Shown one piece after another: positions 3,703 to 48,940 of a DNA stretch of 48,940 nt. Source of the stretch: a virus; the IMG/VR virus record IMGVR_UViG_3300032893_000076, positions 1 through 48,940 of that record; one strand, given 5' to 3'. Made by a program: the position numbers and the translations under genes. The notes under the pieces were generated by a model. That model saw nothing but the letters and a program-made list of their open reading frames with translations, made no database searches and had not been told where the DNA came from. Within the stretch, counting starts at the first letter, position 1; the number at the start of each line of letters is the position of its first letter.

Positions 3703-5776
3703 GTACATTGTAGTTGACGTAGAAACAACGTCTAAGGATTGGTACACAGCAAAGCTTCACGGCATCGGTGTGGGCTACTCAGAAGACGACATCCAGTATT
3801 ATCCAGCGTGGGATGTCCCGGACAACATACGACAAGACCTAGCTAATCCAAAGATAGCCAAAATCGGACACAACTTTCATGGCTATGACGGCAAAGTTTT
3901 GCGTAAAGCCGGGTTCGAAGTCAAAGGTCCTATAGATGACACGATGATTACAGAGAACTTAATCGATCCTGACCAACCTTTAGGGTTGAAATATTTAGCC
4001 GAGAAGTATTTCGGTCCTGAGAGTATCGAGAAAAAGAAACGTCTTGATAAGTATATTTCAGATGTCAAAGCCGGACATATTGGCGGCCTGTGTGCGCTTG
4101 ATTTACTAGACGAAAATCATCCGCATCTTGAGATAATCGCTGAGTACTGTAAAGAAGACGTCCTTAATACTCTTAGAATATTCTTTCGTGGTATCGAGAA
4201 GTTGAAGGAGATGGATAAGACTCTAAAGAGTTCTAAGTTTGGGTTTAAGAAGTCTCCATTAGATTGTTATATAGAAGAATGCCGCCCACTTGAATCTGTT
4301 CTATTCGAGATGGAATACCGAGGAATTCGGGTAAACATCGAAGAGATAGATAGAATTAAATCTGCCGCTGTAGTAGAAATGGATAGGATTTCAGACAGGC
4401 TTAATAAAATCTTAATCAACCGGATTCATTCCGCAGAACTGGAGATATATGAAGCGAAGTGTGCTAAAGCTCCTTCCGAAAGAGCCCGAGCCAAACTTGG
4501 ACTTGGTGTTGGTCCTTGTCGATTTTCGTGGACAAACAACAACCACGTCGGGCTACTCCTATACAAATACTGCGGGCTCGATGAAAGAAGTATTTTCACG
4601 ACGGAAAAAGGTAAGTTCAGAACAGACAAAGCAGCTATTGGAAGTCTACAAGCAATTCTGCCAAAAGAGCACAGACTCCAAGAAGTCTTAGCCTTATTCT
4701 TAGAATACAAGCGGCATATGAAAATCGTCTCTACTTATACAGGGACGAATAAAAAGGGAATAATGTCAAAGGTTAGGGAAGTTTCTCCGGGACATTATAG
4801 AATCTTTCCTAGTTACAGACAAACAACGGGTACTGGAAGGCTTGCCGCTAGTAATCCTAATATGCAGAATCTAAAACAGGATTCTGAGGTAAAGAAATTC
4901 TTCATACCTGACAACTCTGGCGAGGTATTTGATGACGCGGATTATTCACAGATTGAACTTAGGACTGGTGCGCATCTGTCTCAAGATCCGACCCTTTGCT
5001 CCGCGTATGTCGCTGGAGATGATGTGCATTTGCTTACGGCTTCGAGATTATTTGGACGGGAAATCACAAAAAAAGACTACAGCGAACGACAAGCGGGAAA
5101 ACGGACTAACTTCCTGACAATTTTCGACGGAAAATGGCCAAGACTTCAAGCTAGCCTTAAAGCGGGCACGGGCAAGGACTTCTCAGAACGTCAATGTAAA
5201 GAGTTTATCCGAGCTTGGTTTGACCTATACTCAGGAGTAAGAGATTACTTAGATTCTCAACTTGAGGTCTTTAGACAGTATAAATTCTGTATCTCAGAAA
5301 CTGGACGAATTAGAAGACTTCCAGACATTATATACGGACAATACGTAGAATGGGTACCGAATGGTGACGGCAGCAGGGATCCTAAGTTTACCGGTCCTCA
5401 ACACTTACTAACTGAATTGATTAAAGAAATTAGACATAAACAGCCTAAGTATGCCAAACGAGAGATTCCTGAAGCCGTAATAGGATTGACAGCTTATCGT
5501 AAGTATAGTCACGCAGTTAAAATGGGCTATAACATGCCTATTCAAGGATTAGCTGCGAGCATGACTAAGCGGGCTATGATACAATTACACAAGGCTGGCC
5601 GCACTATAGTCAATCAAGTGCATGACAGCTTAGTGGTCTCGAGAAAACGAGGAGATTCAATAGCTAAACAGCAAGTGATTGATTTAATGGAAAAAACATA
5701 CTCACTGTCAATCCCTGTGTTAGTTGATGTAAAAACGATTTCGACATTTCATCCTGAAGATATAGTTAAGGAGTAA
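3689..5776 (+). CDS. Family A DNA polymerase with 3'-5' exonuclease domain
   Basis: 695 residues from the ATG at 3689; an upstream TTG at 3671 would add six. Exonuclease motifs: DVE at residues 10-12, an NFHGYD motif near 60, and YCKED near 155. Polymerase motif A is DYSQIELR, motif B is RQAGKRTNFLTIFDG, and motif C is VHDS. In motif B the usual Tyr-Gly is Phe-Asp-Gly, and in motif C the usual Glu after HD is Ser. The Phe in NF is the residue that normally discriminates against dideoxynucleotides. It is the likely replicative polymerase of the phage, ending the DNA-replication operon. Confidence 0.96.
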   Translation: MPKHKYIVVDVETTSKDWYTAKLHGIGVGYSEDDIQYYPAWDVPDNIRQDLANPKIAKIGHNFHGYDGKVLRKAGFEVKGPIDDTMITENLIDPDQPLGLKYLAEKYFGPESIEKKKRLDKYISDVKAGHIGGLCALDLLDENHPHLEIIAEYCKEDVLNTLRIFFRGIEKLKEMDKTLKSSKFGFKKSPLDCYIEECRPLESVLFEMEYRGIRVNIEEIDRIKSAAVVEMDRISDRLNKILINRIHSAELEIYEAKCAKAPSERARAKLGLGVGPCRFSWTNNNHVGLLLYKYCGLDERSIFTTEKGKFRTDKAAIGSLQAILPKEHRLQEVLALFLEYKRHMKIVSTYTGTNKKGIMSKVREVSPGHYRIFPSYRQTTGTGRLAASNPNMQNLKQDSEVKKFFIPDNSGEVFDDADYSQIELRTGAHLSQDPTLCSAYVAGDDVHLLTASRLFGREITKKDYSERQAGKRTNFLTIFDGKWPRLQASLKAGTGKDFSERQCKEFIRAWFDLYSGVRDYLDSQLEVFRQYKFCISETGRIRRLPDIIYGQYVEWVPNGDGSRDPKFTGPQHLLTELIKEIRHKQPKYAKREIPEAVIGLTAYRKYSHAVKMGYNMPIQGLAASMTKRAMIQLHKAGRTIVNQVHDSLVVSRKRGDSIAKQQVIDLMEKTYSLSIPVLVDVKTISTFHPEDIVKE

Positions 5777-14367: not shown

Positions 14368-14562
14368 ATGAAAAGGCTTTCACAAAAAGGCGTTAAGGCG
14401 ATAATCGACGCGTACAAAGCCCTACAGTCTTCGGACTTTATTCCAAACATTATCACGATGCCTGTGAATAATGTTAGAAAATTCTGCAAAGCCGCCGGAT
14501 TAACTCCTGAAGAAACCGAACAGTTTATTTTAGACCATACGATCTCTTTTGAGGACGAATGA
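14368..14562 (+). CDS. Small possible DNA-binding protein before the integrase
   Basis: 64 residues; helical, with VRKFCKAAGLTPEETEQFI resembling a small helix-turn-helix. It is driven by promoter copy A and overlaps the integrase start by four bases, so it could be a recombination directionality factor or regulator of it. Function inferred from context only. Confidence 0.62.
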   Translation: MKRLSQKGVKAIIDAYKALQSSDFIPNIITMPVNNVRKFCKAAGLTPEETEQFILDHTISFEDE

Positions 14563-15629
14563 AAGAGTACTTCATAAAATCTCCCACCGTTCGCAATAAG
14601 CGAAAAACGTTCGCAATCGTCGAGCGTACGACTGACGAGAATGGTGTACATAAAAACCGTACACTAAATGATGACAGGATTAATACTATTAACAAATCCT
14701 TGTTATCAGGCGAACATACTACTGTTTATCTTCGCGCTCAACTAAAAGATTTAGTTAATGAGTTTAGAGGACAAGCTTATCCTGAAAAAATCACAGCTAA
14801 CAATCCAGAAAATCTAAAGATTTTCGATAGGTTCTGGGCGGAGGAATACGAACACCGAAGGATTGTAGACAAGACCTCAGCGAAGAATGAGTTCCTGCGC
14901 GCCGTGAGGATTCTAGGGAATTTGTCTTTAATGACGGCTGATAGCAACTCCCTGCAGCGGCAGATAAACTCACTAGTCAAAGGACCTAAACAAAGACGTA
15001 CGGTTGCCGCCATTCGAACTATCCTCAGATATTTAGGCAGGGCGGATGTGAAGTTGACTTTAGATAATAAGACCTATCCCGAGATTAAGTACTTATCTGA
15101 AGCTGACTTAAACAAAGTCATAACTAAACTTCCCTGGTTTGATGCTCTGTTAGCCAGGGCGGCATTCTATTCGGGCGGTAGATTAGGTGAGCTCTTTGCC
15201 TTAGAATCGATTAACTTCTCAGGCTATCAACTTCAGATTAACTCCCAGATTAAGCTGACGGGTGATAAAGCCCTCCCTAAGCGCCAGAAGCGCCGTAGAG
15301 CGTATGTTCCTGCCCCAGGCAGGGAATGGGTATCTGCATGGTGTTCTATCCCTTTAGATGAGAAGCTAGCTATGCGTAAGCGTGAATATTCACGGATTAT
15401 TCAAAAAGCGTGCAGAGAAGCTTTTCCTACTATTCCTAGTAAACATGTTTCGTTTCATGACTTGCGGCATAGCTACGCGATTTATTGCTTGAGTAACGAA
15501 GTCAACCTGTCTCTCGTAGCTCAGTCTTTGGGGAATGGTGAGAAGGTGTGTCAGGACCATTATTCAGGATATTCGGCTAATGACGCTACCCTAGCCGCCA
15601 TGGATGCTATCTTTCAGAGAAGAAAATGA
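14559..15629 (+). CDS. int: Tyrosine recombinase/integrase
   Basis: 356 residues. An N-terminal arm and core-binding domain (about 80-165) precede the catalytic domain. Catalytic residues: R208 (GGRLGE), H300 and R303 (HDLRH), Y335 (DHY). The usual His/Trp after LG is Asn326 (SLGNG). This is a lambda-type integrase layout, so the phage may be temperate or use the enzyme to resolve multimers. I found no recognisable CI-type repressor and no tRNA or clear att core next to it. Confidence 0.88.
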   Translation: MKEYFIKSPTVRNKRKTFAIVERTTDENGVHKNRTLNDDRINTINKSLLSGEHTTVYLRAQLKDLVNEFRGQAYPEKITANNPENLKIFDRFWAEEYEHRRIVDKTSAKNEFLRAVRILGNLSLMTADSNSLQRQINSLVKGPKQRRTVAAIRTILRYLGRADVKLTLDNKTYPEIKYLSEADLNKVITKLPWFDALLARAAFYSGGRLGELFALESINFSGYQLQINSQIKLTGDKALPKRQKRRRAYVPAPGREWVSAWCSIPLDEKLAMRKREYSRIIQKACREAFPTIPSKHVSFHDLRHSYAIYCLSNEVNLSLVAQSLGNGEKVCQDHYSGYSANDATLAAMDAIFQRRK

Positions 15630-37474: not shown

Positions 37475-38435
37475 TTTTCACTATTGGTATAGCTACACAG
37501 CGGCAATTATAATCTTCGCCAGGATTGTTTCTCTTCCCTTGTGGATTAGTTACGGGAGGCCGCGAAAATTTCTGTTTTGTCTTATCTAATGCTTTATGCA
37601 TGTCTCGAACAGGATGTGCTTCCGTACCGACAACTGTTCTCCATTCGTAGTCATCAACTCCGGCTTCGGCATATCTTTGTTCTTTCAGTTTGGCAGTCAA
37701 AAGATTCGTTTCCTGCCGAGCCAGGAACTTAGCTTTTCGCTTCCCGACTCCGAAGCTCGCTTCGATCATCTTCGCGATCTCTTTATGCCGGTTTCCAGCA
37801 AAGACGTGCGATTCGATTTGTTTCCTAAGACGGATAATCTCTTCATCCGTGAAATTCTTAATCCCTAGTTTAAGATTCTCAGTATAGGACAACTTTAAGT
37901 TGTCTTTCGCCTCTTTTGATAAACTAGGGGAGATAGTTACTGCTTCAACAGCACTTTTAAAGCTTTTAGTAATATCAGAATTGACTTTAGCCTCAGTTCG
38001 ATTGAAGTACTTCCCAGGTTTTACTGCTTTGGCAGTATTTTCAGTGTTTTTCTGAAGATTATCTAAAATATTTCCGAAGTTTTTTTTCAATTCTTCATCT
38101 TTCTTAGCTTGTGTCGCAATCGCGCGCTGTAAATCTGCAGGTAATTGTTCGGTGGGAATTACCCACTTTCCCACTTCCCATTTGGCTCCCAGGTCTTTCA
38201 AGGCTTTTGATGTTTTAGCTGTAAACGCACCAGTAAATCCTTGTACAGTATATCGTATAGTTCCGGTCTCGATTGCCGCAAGCAGATCTGAAAATGAATT
38301 GCGGATTATATCATGGATTTGTAGTTCTCTAGCTATTGGAGAATACAAGTATTTTCGTAAGATAAATAAAAGATAAACCTCAAGCTCTTGAACTTGCTTC
38401 AAAGGTTCTGTTACTGGACGAAGACGGATTTCCAT
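37467..38435 (-). CDS. Phage head morphogenesis protein (Mu F/SPP1 gp7-like)
   Basis: 322 residues. C-terminal FARQET-like (FLARQETNLLTAKLKEQRYAEAG) and YEWRTVVGTEAHPVRDMHKALD ending NCRCVAIPI are the Mu F/gp7 signature with the usual His and Cys. Acts in head assembly, possibly with portal. Confidence 0.87.
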   Translation of the reverse strand: MEIRLRPVTEPLKQVQELEVYLLFILRKYLYSPIARELQIHDIIRNSFSDLLAAIETGTIRYTVQGFTGAFTAKTSKALKDLGAKWEVGKWVIPTEQLPADLQRAIATQAKKDEELKKNFGNILDNLQKNTENTAKAVKPGKYFNRTEAKVNSDITKSFKSAVEAVTISPSLSKEAKDNLKLSYTENLKLGIKNFTDEEIIRLRKQIESHVFAGNRHKEIAKMIEASFGVGKRKAKFLARQETNLLTAKLKEQRYAEAGVDDYEWRTVVGTEAHPVRDMHKALDKTKQKFSRPPVTNPQGKRNNPGEDYNCRCVAIPIVKIA

Positions 38436-40156
38436 TACTCCGCCTTTCGATGAAATGTCCCGCCCATTTTCTTATAGAGATATGAAACCAAAGCCCATTT
38501 ACGGGTACCGCCAGTTGATTTATCGGCTGCCTTTTTAGCCTCTTCCCATTTACCTTCGTCTACATCCCCTGGGTTTTCTATTTTTTCCTCAGATTCTGCA
38601 TTATGCGCTTTAATATCTTCGGCTAAAGAATTCTTAGTAGTTTGTCCAGGAGACGACGTCGTAGGTTGACTTCCCGCAGGCATGCTAGAAGCATCTGATT
38701 CTTCTCCGCCTTCTTTGTCCGCTTGAGATTCCTCTTCTTGAGCGCCCGGAATATTACCAATTTCGTCTGCGCCGTCTGGTAAAGCCTCGTTGTCTAACTG
38801 AATCCCTAGTAAATCTTCCTTGTTTACTGCGTCTCTATATTCCTCAAGACTAATTAATCCTGCCTGTGCCGCGGCAATAAGTCGATTATGCTGACTCTCT
38901 TTAACTTTTTCGTTGGCTTCCGCACTAAGCACTCTAAGCGGTTCAAATTCAATCGAAAGATCATCTGGCACGAAACCAAATAATTGCTGGCATCTGAGTT
39001 CCGCCATTTTCAAGATATGTTTCTTGGCAGGCGTACGAATCGTAGACTCAATCATTCCGTTATAGACTTCAAGATCCGCTTCACCAGAGTTAAAGCCGTT
39101 TGCACTCTCACCAAAGAGCTTCGTCCTGGGCATTCGAAGATCGGCCGCGACCTGAATCCGGATTTGCTCCATTACATCGGCCAATCCAGAGAATGTCAGC
39201 GTCTTTTGCTCGTATTTGTCTTCAGCATCCATCACAATCGCGTGTTGGAAGTCTTTCGCTTGATTTGCTATCTGAATACGCTGACGAACTGCCATAGCGC
39301 CTTGTGGAGCCAAGAGAGTACTCGTCAGATTCTTAATCGCAAAAACGTCGATCTTCGCTTCGTCTACAAGTTCATAGATAAGACTTGTGCCTTCGAGGTA
39401 TTGATTCAAACTTCTGACTAAAGTCTCAACGACAGAAAATCCCCAGCCGCGCAGGCGTGGACGTAAATACGCCGGAGCCTTCTCACCGATCTGTCTAAGA
39501 ACTCTAGATCTGTGAAGCTTAATCCCGTAATAATCGAAGAACTCAATCCTATCTAAAGGCTGCATTCTTTCAAATCCGGAATAAGCGGCATCAGTATTCT
39601 GAAGATTAAAGAACAATTCCCACAGATCGAAATCTCGGAATTCTAGCGTGTCTCCTTGTTTAAGTGAAGATACGTCAAACGGAGTCTCAGGATCTTGGTC
39701 AGTCATAATGATGACTCCCCCTCCCCCATATAATCGCATCCACTTAAACCCGTCGGTCATTCTCGACATATCATCTTGGCGGATCATTGTGTCTCTAAGC
39801 AGATTCAAATCTGAAGGCTGAAGTTGTTTAGATAAGATTTCTATGCCGCCTCTAAAGGCATCTAAAACAGGGATGTCTACCAGAGTCTTGACTAAAGCTA
39901 GCTCCACATAAGCTTCACTAAGAACCTGCAAGAAGTTACTTAGGAAATACCAACGAAGCTGTCCAAAGATTTCATTAACCTGTGATACGTTCTGATTACC
40001 GGGACCAGAAGGAAAGCCGCTGCCTGGAAAGCCGTTACTTCCGAACAGTACTCCTTGGAGCCCGTTTGCAAGGATCTGTTCTCGCATGGCATCTGCCATT
40101 TCGTTTTTAATTTTCTCTAGTTGCTTATTAGTAAACTTGGCAGGTTTTTTAGGCAT
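38435..40156 (-). CDS. Portal protein (DUF1073-like)
   Basis: 573 residues. DUF1073-type portal: FLSNFLQVLSEAYVELALVKTLVDIPVLDAFRGG, RDFDLWELFFN, and a long acidic C-terminal tail. The last 40 residues (KWALVSYLYKKMGG) form a small extra domain. Forms the dodecameric channel. Begins the head operon. Confidence 0.88.
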   Translation of the reverse strand: MPKKPAKFTNKQLEKIKNEMADAMREQILANGLQGVLFGSNGFPGSGFPSGPGNQNVSQVNEIFGQLRWYFLSNFLQVLSEAYVELALVKTLVDIPVLDAFRGGIEILSKQLQPSDLNLLRDTMIRQDDMSRMTDGFKWMRLYGGGGVIIMTDQDPETPFDVSSLKQGDTLEFRDFDLWELFFNLQNTDAAYSGFERMQPLDRIEFFDYYGIKLHRSRVLRQIGEKAPAYLRPRLRGWGFSVVETLVRSLNQYLEGTSLIYELVDEAKIDVFAIKNLTSTLLAPQGAMAVRQRIQIANQAKDFQHAIVMDAEDKYEQKTLTFSGLADVMEQIRIQVAADLRMPRTKLFGESANGFNSGEADLEVYNGMIESTIRTPAKKHILKMAELRCQQLFGFVPDDLSIEFEPLRVLSAEANEKVKESQHNRLIAAAQAGLISLEEYRDAVNKEDLLGIQLDNEALPDGADEIGNIPGAQEEESQADKEGGEESDASSMPAGSQPTTSSPGQTTKNSLAEDIKAHNAESEEKIENPGDVDEGKWEEAKKAADKSTGGTRKWALVSYLYKKMGGTFHRKAE

Positions 40157-40184
40157 AAATCTCCACTTAGCTACCGTAAGTTTA

Positions 40185-40215
40185 ACATATTTGCTTCACA
40201 GTTTAATTTTAAACT
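40185..40215 (+). promoter_or_regulatory. Phage promoter element, copy F
   Basis: ACATATTTGCTTCACAGTT: two half-sites 11 bp apart, and TAAACT at 40210-40215. It overlaps the left arm of the three-way fold. The next plus-strand gene is 425 bp away, so a long leader or noncoding RNA would be made. On the other strand it holds TATGTT facing the portal gene. Confidence 0.6.
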
Positions 40216-40275
40216 ACTTTAAGTACTTCGTTACGTACTTGTTGGTCCGGACCAACGTAGTTTGACAAAATTAAA
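40202..40275. other. Three-way-junction inverted repeat
   Basis: Outer stem: 40202-40217 pairs with 40257-40275 (16 bp with a three-base bulge at 40264-40266). Inside, AAGTAC/GTACTT (40221-40226/40235-40240) forms a hairpin, and GTTGGTCCGGACCAAC (40241-40256) is a perfect palindrome. The two inner hairpins abut each other and the outer stem, so the fold is a clean Y. No T tract follows, so it is not a plain terminator. It could be a site for a DNA-binding protein, a packaging or recombination site, or the start of a structured RNA. Confidence 0.65.
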
Positions 40276-40634
40276 AAGTTTGATATTTCATAGGAGATAT
40301 CCAAGTACTTGAGTACCTATTAGCCCGCCAGAGGCGGTGTCTAGTAGGAATAATACTCGAGGAAAACGGACGTTAGCCTGGGTGAGATTGAATATCGAGG
40401 ACAATTCTAGCGGGACTAACGACGGGTACCTCCAAGCACAGTTTAATCTGACCCCATGATTTGATCCTGTTTGCTGTCGCAGCACAGGACACCGAATTAT
40501 GGCGCTAAGATCTCTCAATCGTTCGCACAGTAATTTTTCGATGTAGGAACCGGCATGTATTCTGTCTGCTTCATTTCTTTTAGAACTCCGTCTTTGACAC
40601 GGATTAGACTTTGCATGCAAATACAACTAGGGAG
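40276..40634 (+). ncRNA. Candidate structured noncoding RNA or leader
   Basis: No convincing gene on either strand. Strong hairpins: 40316-40323 with 40341-40348 enclosing CCGCC/GGCGG (13 pairs); CGTTAG with CTAACG enclosing a smaller stem (about 40370-40423); TCCTG..TGCTG with CAGCA..CAGGA (40463-40488); TCCGT/ACGGA near 40590-40606; TTTGCATGCAAA at 40611-40622. The 11-mer CACAGTTTAAT occurs here (40438) and at the promoter (40197). It could be a noncoding RNA or a 5' leader of the 40640 gene. Class not recognised. Confidence 0.45.
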
Positions 40635-40639
40635 CACCA

Positions 40640-40972
40640 ATGCTGCTAGTCAAGCAAATGTCTACTGACGAGGATATCCTTGATGAAGAGTTGGGCGAAG
40701 CAATTCTAGGAGTTCGAGGCGCCCTAGAGTGGATTGAGCAAGCCGCCGCAGTAAAAAATTCATATTTACTGTGGAAAGGGCGCTGTCTCCTTTATGACCG
40801 GATTCAAGTCTTGAGAAAATCGTTACTGACGGCGCCCGACAAAAGTCCGAAAGAGCAAATTTTAGTAGGTACAGCTAAGCTTGACCTCGCAGCTTCGGAA
40901 GAAGCTCTGCGAACTGCGTCTCTGCAGCTTTCTTTGATTCTGTCGGCCGTTCGAGCTGATGCCAAATCCTAA
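40640..40972 (+). CDS. Plus-strand island protein
   Basis: 110 residues, mostly helical with two long amphipathic helices (SVEEL-type start DEDILDEELGEAILGVRGALEWIEQ, then KLDLAASEEALRTASLQLSL). AGGGAG precedes the ATG. It lies alone between terminase and portal with a structured leader. A helical regulator or early host-takeover protein is possible; no family recognised. Confidence 0.65.
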   Translation: MLLVKQMSTDEDILDEELGEAILGVRGALEWIEQAAAVKNSYLLWKGRCLLYDRIQVLRKSLLTAPDKSPKEQILVGTAKLDLAASEEALRTASLQLSLILSAVRADAKS

Positions 40973-41015
40973 AAATCTTGTCTTCAACTTTTTTCTTGGT
41001 GGCCTGGGCTACTGC

Positions 41016-42464
41016 CTATCTAAACAATCCAGGAAGCCCGTAGATTGCGGGATCAAGTGGGTCCTCGTCTTGCCCTCTATTCAACCCCATCGCCGCTCCT
41101 AGGGCGGGCAGAACGCTTAAAATCCCTGTTCCTTGAGCGAGCTCGTTAAATGCTCCTGACAACGCATCGACTTGGTCATCGTGTGCACCTTCGGGGAAGT
41201 TTTCGAGTTCTTGCAAGAAGGCATCATTCCAGGTTGCTTTCAAGACAAGCACGTTCCCTGCCTCAGCCTGCGCACTGCAGGCCTTCGCTCTTGTGATTTT
41301 ATCTTTCGTAGGCTTACGAATACGAACATCAAAGCCGCCTAGATACTGGGTCATGTGAGAAACATCGGCTATTCCTGCACTTCCAGGGTCTTGTTCGAGG
41401 ATTATAGGGACATGATGTCCGTCTTGATATCCAATGTTTCTAATCATCTCCTGGACTTTTTTAGGACTCTCTCGCATACGGATGACGTCTAGAACTACCC
41501 ACACCCCGGAATTAAGTTTTGTCATCTTAAGCCCGACCGTGTAATCAGGATCAGGGTTTGTTTCCCCAGGAACTGTTGCCGCTCTGTCCCAGTAACGGAC
41601 CGTGTGATACATCTGCTGTTGGTTACAAGCTTCGATAACTGGAAAATAACTACGACGAAAGAACATTCCGGCACTTGGCCGGACATTCCAGTTCCCGTTA
41701 AGCAACCGTTCACGTTCAACTCGATCCAAAGCCATTAAGTTCCCGAGATATCCCGGGTCTTTTTCCATCAAGATTTTATTATCCGTAAGCAAAGCTGAGA
41801 TAAAGGTCACTGATTTAGGTTCTTGATAAACGCCGTATCGCGCTATAAGTTCTTCTTTCGTATCCGCCCAGATGATATCTTCTCCTAATCTGATAAACCA
41901 ACGAAGCTTGCCGCTCCGCTCTTTAATCGGGAAACCCGACTTTGGATCAATCCACCAATCTAAGAATTTACGTACCCAAGAATCAGCGTCGGGGTTTGTC
42001 GTAGCCCGGACATATGGACGAACCCCCGAGGTGCTTCGATTACGCGAGAGCATGTAAAAAAACTGTTTCTGGGTGAAGTGCGTGAGTTCGTCAAACCCCA
42101 AATAAGTTATCTGCGAACCCTGCCAGTCTAGATAAGTCGTTTCATGCTCTAGGTGAGCGAACTTAAGACTCATGCCAGAGGGAAAATGCCATTCCAAAGC
42201 CATTTCTCTGGGGGTTGCCTTTACGTGTGGGTAAAGTAAGTGAGACTCGTCCCACAACCCTCCAGGGTTACGAACCTGAGTTGCGTTACGACGGAATATC
42301 GCTCCTGTTACTTTCCCGTTTTCGTGATGTCTTATTGGCTCAAGTAACAGCGCGAAACTCTTACCAGATCCGGCAGAACCGCCAAAGATAGCAATATCAG
42401 CACTTGTTTGAAAGAATTCGGTCTGGGGCCCGGGTTGCGGTTTAATCTCTATTCGTTCTTGCAC
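41016..42464 (-). CDS. terL: Terminase large subunit
   Basis: 482 residues, GTG start. Walker A at 29-36 (GSAGSGKS), Walker B ITYLGFDELTHF near residue 115, and a nuclease domain with QDPGSAGIADV and EGAHDDQVDALSG at the C-terminus. Packaging motor. The start codon is six bases after TAAAAT with no ribosome site, so its mRNA may be leaderless. Confidence 0.95.
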   Translation of the reverse strand: MQERIEIKPQPGPQTEFFQTSADIAIFGGSAGSGKSFALLLEPIRHHENGKVTGAIFRRNATQVRNPGGLWDESHLLYPHVKATPREMALEWHFPSGMSLKFAHLEHETTYLDWQGSQITYLGFDELTHFTQKQFFYMLSRNRSTSGVRPYVRATTNPDADSWVRKFLDWWIDPKSGFPIKERSGKLRWFIRLGEDIIWADTKEELIARYGVYQEPKSVTFISALLTDNKILMEKDPGYLGNLMALDRVERERLLNGNWNVRPSAGMFFRRSYFPVIEACNQQQMYHTVRYWDRAATVPGETNPDPDYTVGLKMTKLNSGVWVVLDVIRMRESPKKVQEMIRNIGYQDGHHVPIILEQDPGSAGIADVSHMTQYLGGFDVRIRKPTKDKITRAKACSAQAEAGNVLVLKATWNDAFLQELENFPEGAHDDQVDALSGAFNELAQGTGILSVLPALGAAMGLNRGQDEDPLDPAIYGLPGLFR

Positions 42465-43208: not shown

Positions 43209-43236
43209 ATTATACCATGCGGCGGCATAAAAGCTA
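43209..43236 (-). promoter_or_regulatory. Minus-strand promoter before the 43202 gene
   Basis: TAGCTT (complement 43231-43236), 16-bp spacer, TGGTATAAT (extended -10, complement 43209-43217). Six bases then lead to the ATG. Confidence 0.62.
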
Positions 43237-43237
43237 A

Positions 43238-43268
43238 AGACAAAACCTAGATTGTGATAAAATTATGT
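43238..43268 (-). promoter_or_regulatory. Phage element, minus-strand copy I
   Basis: On the minus strand ACATAATTTTATCACAAT carries CATAATT and CACAAT 11 bp apart. The box at the usual -10 place reads TTGTCT, poor for a promoter, so this copy may be an operator above the 43209 promoter. Confidence 0.45.
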
Positions 43269-43507
43269 TTACTCGGGACCGTGAAATAGTGGGCTAACCC
43301 CCGACTAGGCAGACTCCCATAAGCTATGAAGCTTTGCTGCAATGCTACTGCACTTACTCCAGATAGGGAACTACGGGTAAGCGGAAGGCCTGAGTAACCA
43401 TACCATATGCCTCTAGATGAAACTTGTTTGTAATCTAGTGGATACTAACTAGGTAATATTACCTAGTAAACTATCCCTACGCCTTTTAATATTAAATATT
43501 TTTTTCT
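43269..43507 (+). ncRNA. Candidate structured noncoding RNA with terminator-like end
   Basis: TTACTCGGG (43269-43277) pairs with CCTGAGTAA (43389-43397), closing a domain with inner stems such as GGG/CCC and AAGC/GCTT. Next a hairpin CTAGAT/ATCTAG, then GGATA/TATCC enclosing a perfect 20-bp palindrome (43448-43467), and a T-rich run from 43499. This is the layout of a stand-alone RNA with an intrinsic terminator. No coding frame is seen. Strings such as GGCCTGAGTA occur in the T4 td intron, but the group I core is absent. Confidence 0.45.
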
Positions 43508-43509
43508 TT

Positions 43510-44007
43510 TACTAAATACTAGTTATTTAGGTTTTCTTTTTAGGATAATAATATTAAGTTTATATAGTAGTCCCGGCCGGAACGGGAGTGAAGGCCGCGG
43601 ACAAGGTTATATCCGTACTAATGCCGCATACCTACCGGATTAAAATAGTCTAAATAATAGAAATAATTTGACATTTATACTAATTCATGTATATATCCGC
43701 AATAAGATCTTCAATAAAATCAAATAATTATATAATAATTTTAGATTGATTTTTTTAAAATTTTTACTAACGATATTCTAAAAATCGTATTTTTGGAGGT
43801 CTCTCTCTGATTGGCCTGGAATCATATATGGGACCCGTTTTGAGGTTGCGGCATACCTAGTGGCATTATTCTTCTTAAACAAACTCAATACCTACACGCA
43901 TTGATATAGCATAGGATTAGATATCCTTTGTTATACCGTGCATAGGTATACAGTGTATGTTGTTGATTGGTGTTATAGCTGACTAATGAATACTCAAATG
44001 AATACTA
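43510..44007. other. AT-rich gene-free region, possible origin or packaging site
   Basis: No gene found. AT-rich tracts (43510-43565 and 43660-43795) flank a GC-rich block (43570-43650) with TCCCG/CGGGA and ATCCG/CGGAT stems. Then hairpins AGGAT/ATCCT and TATACC/GGTATA (43912-43948) and the repeat AATGAATACT twice near 43985-44007. The place beside the small-terminase gene suits an origin or pac/cos site, but none is proven. Confidence 0.3.
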
Positions 44008-45149: not shown

Positions 45150-45299
45150 ATGAGACTATCAGAGAAAATCTATGTCACAGTCATGCTCGTATGTTTCGGG
45201 ATGTTGTTAGTAGCTATTGTAGGCGGATGTTCTTCTGCGCCAGCTAAACACAACTGGCAATACTCAGGTCAGTATGATCGATACGACGTTTCACGATAA
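45150..45299 (+). CDS. Tiny lipoprotein
   Basis: 49 residues, GGAGG upstream. Lipobox VGGC (Cys27) and a mature part rich in Ser/Tyr. Similar size and layout to the 44980 gene, so the two may be diverged copies. Function unknown. Confidence 0.6.
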   Translation: MRLSEKIYVTVMLVCFGMLLVAIVGGCSSAPAKHNWQYSGQYDRYDVSR

Positions 45300-45309
45300 G
45301 GAGACGGCG

Positions 45310-46092
45310 ATGAATAAATATAAACTTAGATTAGATTTGAGCATTGATATTGGAGTTAAATTATATCGGATTGAACGGCTAGATAACGGTGAGCTTGGCG
45401 GTTATATTGGATCTGAAAAAAATTTGTCTCAAGAAGGAAATGCGTGGATATACGGAGATGCGCGGGTATACGGAAATGCGCAGGTATCCGGAGATGCGCA
45501 GATATACGGAGATGCGCGGGTATCCGGAGATGCGCGGGTATCCGGAAATGCGCGGGTATACGGAAATGCGTGGGTATCCGGAAATGCGTGGGTATACGGA
45601 GATGCGCGGGTATACGGAAATGCGTGGGTGTCCGGAGATGCGCAGATATACGGAGATGCGCGGGTATCCGGAGATGCGCGGGTATCCGGAAATGCGCGGG
45701 TATCCGGAAATGCGTGGGTATCCGGAGATGCGCGGGTATCCGGAGATGCGTGGGTATCCGGAAATGCGCGGGTATCCGGAGATGCGCGGGTATACGGAAA
45801 TGCGTGGGTATCCGGAGATGCGCGGATATCCGGAAATGCGTGGGTATCCGGAAATGCACAAATTAAATGCATTAGTGAAATTATTAATTTCGTAATTGGT
45901 TTTTCTTTTTCTATCACGATCACCCCAGATAATATTATGATTGGTTGCCAAGTTAAAAAACGTACGGAGTGGTTAAAAATTACGAAAGACGAAGCAAAAG
46001 AAATGGGACTTCCTGAACATTTATATCCGTATTACAGACAGCTTATTAAAACTGGAATGAAACTTGTCCCTAAAAGAAAGAAGGTAAAATGA
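45310..46092 (+). CDS. Hexapeptide-repeat solenoid protein
   Basis: 260 residues from the ATG at 45310 (AAGGAGACGGCG upstream). N-terminal domain 1-42 (LDNGELGGYIGS), then 24 hexapeptides of form G-(N/D)-A-(R/W/Q)-(V/I)-(S/Y), and a C-terminal domain (DEAKEMGLPEHLYPYYRQ) with a basic end. The repeat suggests a beta-solenoid (left-handed or flat) with changing surface residues R/W/Q and S/Y. I do not know its partner. Confidence 0.75.
   Translation: MNKYKLRLDLSIDIGVKLYRIERLDNGELGGYIGSEKNLSQEGNAWIYGDARVYGNAQVSGDAQIYGDARVSGDARVSGNARVYGNAWVSGNAWVYGDARVYGNAWVSGDAQIYGDARVSGDARVSGNARVSGNAWVSGDARVSGDAWVSGNARVSGDARVYGNAWVSGDARISGNAWVSGNAQIKCISEIINFVIGFSFSITITPDNIMIGCQVKKRTEWLKITKDEAKEMGLPEHLYPYYRQLIKTGMKLVPKRKKVK
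45436..45867 (+). repeat. 24 tandem 18-bp repeats in the solenoid gene
   Basis: Each unit begins GGA(A/G)ATGCG and codes one hexapeptide. Units differ by single bases in the codons for N/D, R/W/Q, V/I and S/Y. The high identity suggests recent expansion or homogenisation. It keeps all six frames open, so other long frames here are not genes. Confidence 0.95.
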
Positions 46093-46412: not shown

Positions 46413-46625
46413 ATGAGAAAAAGTATCAACATTGAAGATTTGATTGAAGTATTAGAATCGCGGCAACGATTTTTAGAAAAAGTTAATACTGATGCGCCTA
46501 AATACGGGCTGAATACATATAGTGATTTCGTATTCGGTAGAACAACTGAAGTTGAATTCTTATTGGATTTGTTTAAAGACAAAGTTGCTAAAGCCGCTAA
46601 AAGCGGCAAGGCCCCAGTAATCTAA
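46413..46625 (+). CDS. Hypothetical helical protein
   Basis: 70 residues from the second of two adjacent ATGs (46410 and 46413), GAGG upstream. Acidic helices (IEDLIEVLESRQRFLEKV, EVEFLLDLFKDKVAK). GCCGC/GCGGC forms a hairpin near its end. Function unknown. Confidence 0.58.
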   Translation: MRKSINIEDLIEVLESRQRFLEKVNTDAPKYGLNTYSDFVFGRTTEVEFLLDLFKDKVAKAAKSGKAPVI

Positions 46626-46812
46626 CACGTCATCGACGGGACTACTGAGGCCTGAAAGTAAATATATTATCTCATGCACATCTCATCCTGTCAATGCGAC
46701 GAAAGTTAAGACAGCCTGTATACAAACTACACTATATTTCATAAGTCAGTCGTAATACAGAGCTTGAACAAAAAGGCATATTAGTTGCACCTTAACTAAA
46801 TGAGAGGTACGT

Positions 46813-48443: not shown

Positions 48444-48940
48444 TGCGTTACACGAATAATCTTGGACTTCCAGAAGCAATCGTCGAAGCTGTTAAGAATG
48501 ATAAGTATTCGAAAGGTGACAGTCATATTTCGATTACAGGATTAATCGCTCCTCCGCGTATTCGAGTGTTGAAAAAGCTCCATGAGAAAGAACTTGAAGA
48601 AGACGTATCTGACAGAATTTGGAGTTTATTAGGACAGGTGACGCATGGAATACTTGAGCGGGCAAATAAACAAGCTTTATCTGAAGAAAGATTTTACATT
48701 GAAATCGACGGAGTCAAAGTCTCAGGTCAACTTGATGCGTATTATAATTCCGGACTCGTGCAAGACTACAAACTTGTGTCCCTATACCAGGTTAAAGACG
48801 GAGTCAAAAAAGAATACGAGCAACAACTTAATTCTTATGCTGCCCTTCTTCGTCATAATAATCTTGTGGTTAATAAATTGGAGCTTGTTTGCATACTTCG
48901 TGATTGGTCTAAGACGAAAGCAAGACAAGACGAAACAATC
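48443..48940 (+). CDS. PD-(D/E)XK nuclease, N-terminal part (continues at base 1)
   Basis: First 166 residues of the 280-residue nuclease. Helix with H68/E72 (QVTHGILE), then the active site D98 (GQLDAY) and D108-Y-K110 (VQDYK), the RecB/Cas4-type core. The gene overlaps the CYTH stop by one base. The rest, with the four-Cys cluster, is at 1-472. Confidence 0.88.
   Translation, partial: MRYTNNLGLPEAIVEAVKNDKYSKGDSHISITGLIAPPRIRVLKKLHEKELEEDVSDRIWSLLGQVTHGILERANKQALSEERFYIEIDGVKVSGQLDAYYNSGLVQDYKLVSLYQVKDGVKKEYEQQLNSYAALLRHNNLVVNKLELVCILRDWSKTKARQDETI
48814..48940. repeat. Direct terminal overlap (right copy)
   Basis: Exact copy of bases 1-127. Removing it gives a unique length of 48,813 bp and joins the two halves of the PD-(D/E)XK nuclease gene in frame. 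Confidence 0.93.

Follow-up and report, generated by a model that had tools for sequence, protein, structure and literature searches.

A 74-nt element at positions 40202-40275 of a phage genome folds as a three-way junction, here called the Y, at the left edge of an insertion of 859 bp that separates the genes of the terminase large subunit and the portal protein. We give an even chance to the reading in which the Y opens a structured plus-strand RNA, as its first domain, and this RNA acts as the leader of a 110-residue protein gene or as a separate RNA. The window, i.e., the whole stretch of 48,940 nt that was analyzed, is a complete circular phage genome of 48,813 bp, with an exact 127-bp direct repeat at positions 1-127 and 48814-48940. 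Family models recognize genes for a contractile tail (sheath, baseplate), a portal, a Terminase_6-type large subunit, an integrase (14559-15629) and an endonuclease VII. Among named phages, the portal is best matched by that of Bdellovibrio phage phi1422 (52% over 70%), a dwarf myovirus (PMC3391216).

The base pairs of the Y were checked letter by letter on the plus strand. The outer stem is composed of a distal part of 9 bp, A-T throughout (40202-40210 with 40267-40275), and an inner part of 7 bp (40211-40217 with 40257-40263), separated by a 3-nt GAC bulge at 40264-40266; the 16-bp stem of the preliminary description is therefore present, but interrupted. The stem encloses an unpaired TTT (40218-40220) and two abutting hairpins, neither of which is assigned to a strand. 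Hairpin A (40221-40240), AAGTAC-TTCGTTAC-GTACTT, has arms of 6 bp (40221-40226 and 40235-40240) and an 8-nt loop, and its pairing probability is 0.96-0.97 on both strands in every context tried. Hairpin B (40241-40256) consists of the palindrome GTTGGTCCGGACCAAC, unique in the window and folded into 6 bp with a 4-nt loop. This palindrome is indeed perfect, but what had been described as 16 bp is a length of 16 nt, with a hairpin arm of at most 8 bp. In total, 18 of the 74 bases are unpaired. No T tract follows the Y on either strand, as initially noted. Every pair is of the Watson-Crick type, with no G-U, and the Y alone thus cannot discriminate between the strands. Two repeats touch the element: an exact 11-nt direct repeat, CACAGTTTAAT, is found at 40197-40207 (the 5' edge of the Y) and at 40437-40447, and the shorter palindrome AAGTACTT occurs at 15087, 38005, 40221, 40303, 47284 and 47437, i.e., twice in the element and twice near 47.3 kb.

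The Y is more stable than its shuffled counterparts. With RNA energies it reaches -19.8 kcal/mol (z -3.4; one of 200 shuffles equally good) and with DNA energies -15.4 (z -4.6; none of 200), and its minus strand folds with z -3.9. In a genome-wide scan with DNA energies, the GC-corrected z of the Y was -5.7, compared to -5.5 for the best window obtained after block-shuffling the genome six times (6 x 6,998 windows, about 42,000 in total). The Y shape is real, as the preliminary description had proposed, and is unlikely to have arisen by chance. With RNA energies, the 74-nt Y does not figure among the top 15 loci of the genome for stability, but at 150 nt the plus-strand window beginning at 40201 takes second place out of 3,254, after a window within a GC-rich repeat gene (45274-46092). 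The latter gene, which has weak collagen-like and tail matches, forms the strongest fold of the genome at both 150 and 400 nt. The strongest 74-nt RNA fold lies on the minus strand at 46593-46653, where a small plus-strand ORF ends in two adjacent hairpins (14 bp and 6 bp).

Beyond the Y, the fold favors one strand. The segment 40276-40520, taken without the Y, has a z of -4.9 on the plus strand (none of 200 shuffles) versus -2.15 on the minus strand, and the larger segment 40180-40640 has -4.2 (none of 100 shuffles) versus -2.25. G-U pairs account for 11 of the 82 pairs of the plus-strand fold, and the complement is unable to form them. The predicted plus-strand units comprise a hairpin, P4 (40282-40301; 8 bp with one G-U, loop AUAG, probability 0.52-0.97), a long hairpin, P5 (40308-40361; 8+8+5 bp with two G-U pairs, probability 0.94-1.00 in every plus-strand context), and a multi-branch domain (40368-40513), whose arm P8 (40455-40501) is robust, in contrast to the context-dependent arm P7 and closing helix P6. 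The linkers between the helical units are exactly 6 nt long in all three cases (40276-40281, 40302-40307 and 40362-40367). When the plus strand was folded in five contexts of varied length, three units were retained throughout, namely the Y, the long hairpin and arm 40455-40501. Most of the plus-strand helices vanish on the minus strand, and there the inner part of the outer stem (7 bp) has a probability of 0.56-0.91, versus 0.97-0.99 on the plus strand. A closed domain of 445 nt, extending as far as the ribosome-binding site, appeared in one fold only and was lost in longer contexts, as was the pairing of 40192-40197 with the ribosome-binding-site region; this domain was rejected. Codon usage gives no coding signal in any of the six frames of 40288-40626, and the minus-strand ORF spanning these positions was rejected for this reason, which agrees with the earlier placement of the Y in a gene-free gap. 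Of the two roles suggested for the Y at the outset, that of a structured RNA domain is, by virtue of the plus-strand folds, the better supported; the other, a replication, packaging or recombination site, has gained no specific support.

Downstream of the folded stretch, an orphan ORF (40640-40972, plus strand) encodes a protein of 110 residues and is preceded by a ribosome-binding-site-like GGGAG box at 40630-40634. Its in-frame codon score is 0.122, compared to 0.168 +/- 0.057 in 25 phage genes; the codon usage is phage-like and the ORF coding-like. AlphaFold2, run on the single sequence, confidently models the protein as a three-helix bundle (mean pLDDT 86). A fold search of viral and PDB libraries with this model returned nothing at E below 0.001, and a match to a DGR retroelement complex (E 0.83) was discarded as a generic helical match. 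No homologue of the protein was found in the IMG/VR scan or in GTDB genome contigs.

We favor a plus-strand RNA because of the fold excess, the strand bias, the non-coding stretch, the insertion that relatives lack and the coding-like ORF; transcription, the start and end of the transcript and its regulation are what we infer from them. The RNA would extend from about 40202 to 40513, as part of a small moron-like cassette located between the terminase and portal genes and oriented against the late operon. Lying just upstream of the gene for the 110-residue helical protein, it would most likely be the long structured leader of this gene, protecting the transcript and controlling its translation; alternatively, it may be released as a separate molecule. 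Terminator-like matches in the region do not exceed chance, and none was found that would end the RNA before the ORF.

The 859-bp interval (40157-41015, with no strand assigned) is flanked by two minus-strand genes, those of the portal protein (38435-40156; Pfam Phage_portal_3, 1.1e-59), the neighbor named from the sequence alone and now confirmed by the family model, and of the terminase large subunit (41016-42464; Pfam Terminase_6N, 2.1e-28). In relatives whose terminase and portal are similar, the same gap measures 10 bp (L012), 9 bp (L013, whose contig covers only part of the terminase gene), 13 bp (L018), 4 bp (L019), 9 bp (L022) and 3 bp (L053), and in phage phi1422 the two genes overlap. 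The gap of 312 bp in L020 and L021 encodes a same-strand protein of about 96 residues. The near-zero gap of the relatives points to insertion of the cassette in the present genome; its loss from all other relatives would be the less simple alternative. The ends of 40157-41015 carry neither terminal inverted repeats nor a target duplication, and a transposable element or MITE was rejected for this reason.

The only other copy of the element was found in IMG/VR contig IMGVR_UViG_3300032829_000192 (L008), which is identical over the element region and differs from the window by one base in 7,963 overall. Provided that the assemblies were made independently, this copy speaks against a gross assembly error. 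When IMG/VR was scanned with the palindrome, with three other patterns and with the 110-residue protein, only L008 and chance 16-mers were recovered, and neither of the RNA models of the element (R1 and R2) recognizes these 16-mers. Searches of phage and plasmid DNA, also at E up to 10, gave chance matches only, and ORF and portal-alignment queries of GTDB genome contigs gave nothing. R1 and R2 matched nothing in 50 related records; this is a weak negative in a search with no positive control, and models of a single distinct sequence find only close copies. The window contains no gathering-level match to Rfam, and E up to 10 adds only a chance microRNA match; known families (GOLLD, ROOL, group I/II intron, pRNA, hammerhead and others) were rejected for want of a covariance-model match. 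The genome contains no tRNA or tmRNA.

The main rival, which we consider possible but rather unlikely, is a DNA control region, in which the palindromes would be operators bound by a dimeric repressor in front of a cassette promoter (TTTGACAAAAT, 40261-40271), and the structured RNA would begin just after these palindromes. The promoter-like TTGACA/TGACAAAAT sequence falls within the 3' arm of the Y. The palindromes are positioned as operators usually are relative to the promoter-like TTGACA and TGACAAAAT, the Y is purely Watson-Crick and most outstanding with DNA energies, and AAGTACTT has six genome copies versus 1.3 expected, two of them in this region. For operators, however, palindromes would suffice, without the 16-bp stem that encloses two of them here; the 16-nt palindrome has no second copy in the window, and the AAGTACTT copies at 15087 and 38005 fall within genes. 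The candidate sigma-70 promoter elements (40261-40288, plus strand) are weak and were chosen by eye: TTGACA at 40261 with TATTTC 16 nt on, or an extended -10, TGACAAAAT, at 40263. A consensus scan did not call them, and promoter-like matches in the region equal chance; both transcript starts are therefore putative. The plus-strand RNA is weakened as well: there is no convincing promoter upstream of 40202, and with the best promoter-like match (40261-40288), transcription would begin past the Y, which would remain in the promoter DNA.

The minus strand of the Y folds as well, as would suit a structure in the late mRNA, located between the terminase and portal cistrons, where a site of RNase III processing or a barrier to decay would set the relative yield of the two proteins. 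Another phage contig, L047, carries a different long hairpin in its terminase-portal gap, which also fits. Most relatives, however, are almost gapless at this place, the outer stem is weaker on the minus strand in longer contexts, and the plus strand gives the better fold for the remainder of the region, and we regard a late-message structure as improbable. The L047 hairpin is imperfect, about 106 nt long (5437-5542 of that contig) in a gap of 179 bp, with z of -5.2 and -4.5 on its two strands; it is matched by neither R1 nor R2.

It is equally doubtful, in our estimate, that the plus-strand RNA belongs to a new class, i.e., a free-standing, multi-domain RNA of about 310 nt that starts with a three-way junction and would act in trans during infection, for example with the flanking packaging proteins or the adjoining helical protein. 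A product of chance or of mutation (e.g., template switching at quasi-palindromes), devoid of function, would be in keeping with the occurrence in a single genome and with the other strong hairpins in the genome; it is a still poorer explanation of a value that was unreached in the shuffled genomes and of an independent neighboring segment that is also strongly folded.

That the Y works at the DNA level in replication, recombination or packaging, as an extruded cruciform or in single-stranded form, is very improbable: the Y is highly stable with DNA energies, and phage SPP1 offers a precedent in the segment with oriR and morons that interrupts its head-gene module (PMC6316719), but the Y is single-copy, distant from the integrase gene, matches no known-site motif and is situated within the late operon, with the minimum of the detrended GC skew (42405) about 2.1 kb away, and relatives that lack the element still replicate and package. 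The distance from the minimum and these relatives argue against an essential role in replication or packaging. The minimum itself coincides with the switch of gene direction. As for the endonuclease VII brought up in the preliminary description, the family model confirms the gene, the presence of which is no evidence that the enzyme has a target here. An ORF-poor, AT-rich region of about 800 bp (43215-44000), flanked by the late and the early genes that diverge from it, is likely to be a control region or origin; it displays back-to-back extended -10 promoter-like sites at 43217 (minus) and 43255 (plus), and its fold is unexceptional (43265-43500, z -1.3).

If the plus-strand RNA is transcribed, it would be a structured RNA of no established class, carried by a dwarf myovirus with a Bdellovibrio phage as its nearest named relative by portal sequence; it would show how a phage parks a gene against its late operon behind a folded leader, and would provide a small RNA-protein pair amenable to testing. 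If not, the locus is an unusual cluster of palindromes ahead of an accessory gene.

Among known systems, the packaging RNA (pRNA) of phage phi29 contains a three-way junction. The element resembles it in shape and place only, being located beside packaging genes; it differs in having no Rfam match and in the Terminase_6 type of the terminase, for which we know of no packaging RNA. Large structured RNAs of phages include GOLLD, ROOL and an ICP1 transcript of about 800 nt, which, like the present element, are orphan non-coding stretches of a phage genome with several helices; the RNA predicted here is shorter (about 310 nt), matches no Rfam family and belongs to a genome that lacks tRNAs (PMC7567579, PMC12286853). 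The cassette as a whole can be compared with phage morons, such as those of SPP1, whose head genes are interrupted by a segment containing oriR and ORFs 8-10 (PMC6316719). Unlike these, it is opposed to the late operon and contains a long structured non-coding part, and for the promoter and terminator of its own that the strict, original definition of a moron includes, there are only chance-level matches, none of them clear. Like them, it places a small extra gene in a conserved structural module: the insertion is missing at the same place in the relatives (859 bp versus 3-13 bp in six of them), and its own coding sequence, the ORF at 40640-40972, is indicated by both codon use and the fold model.
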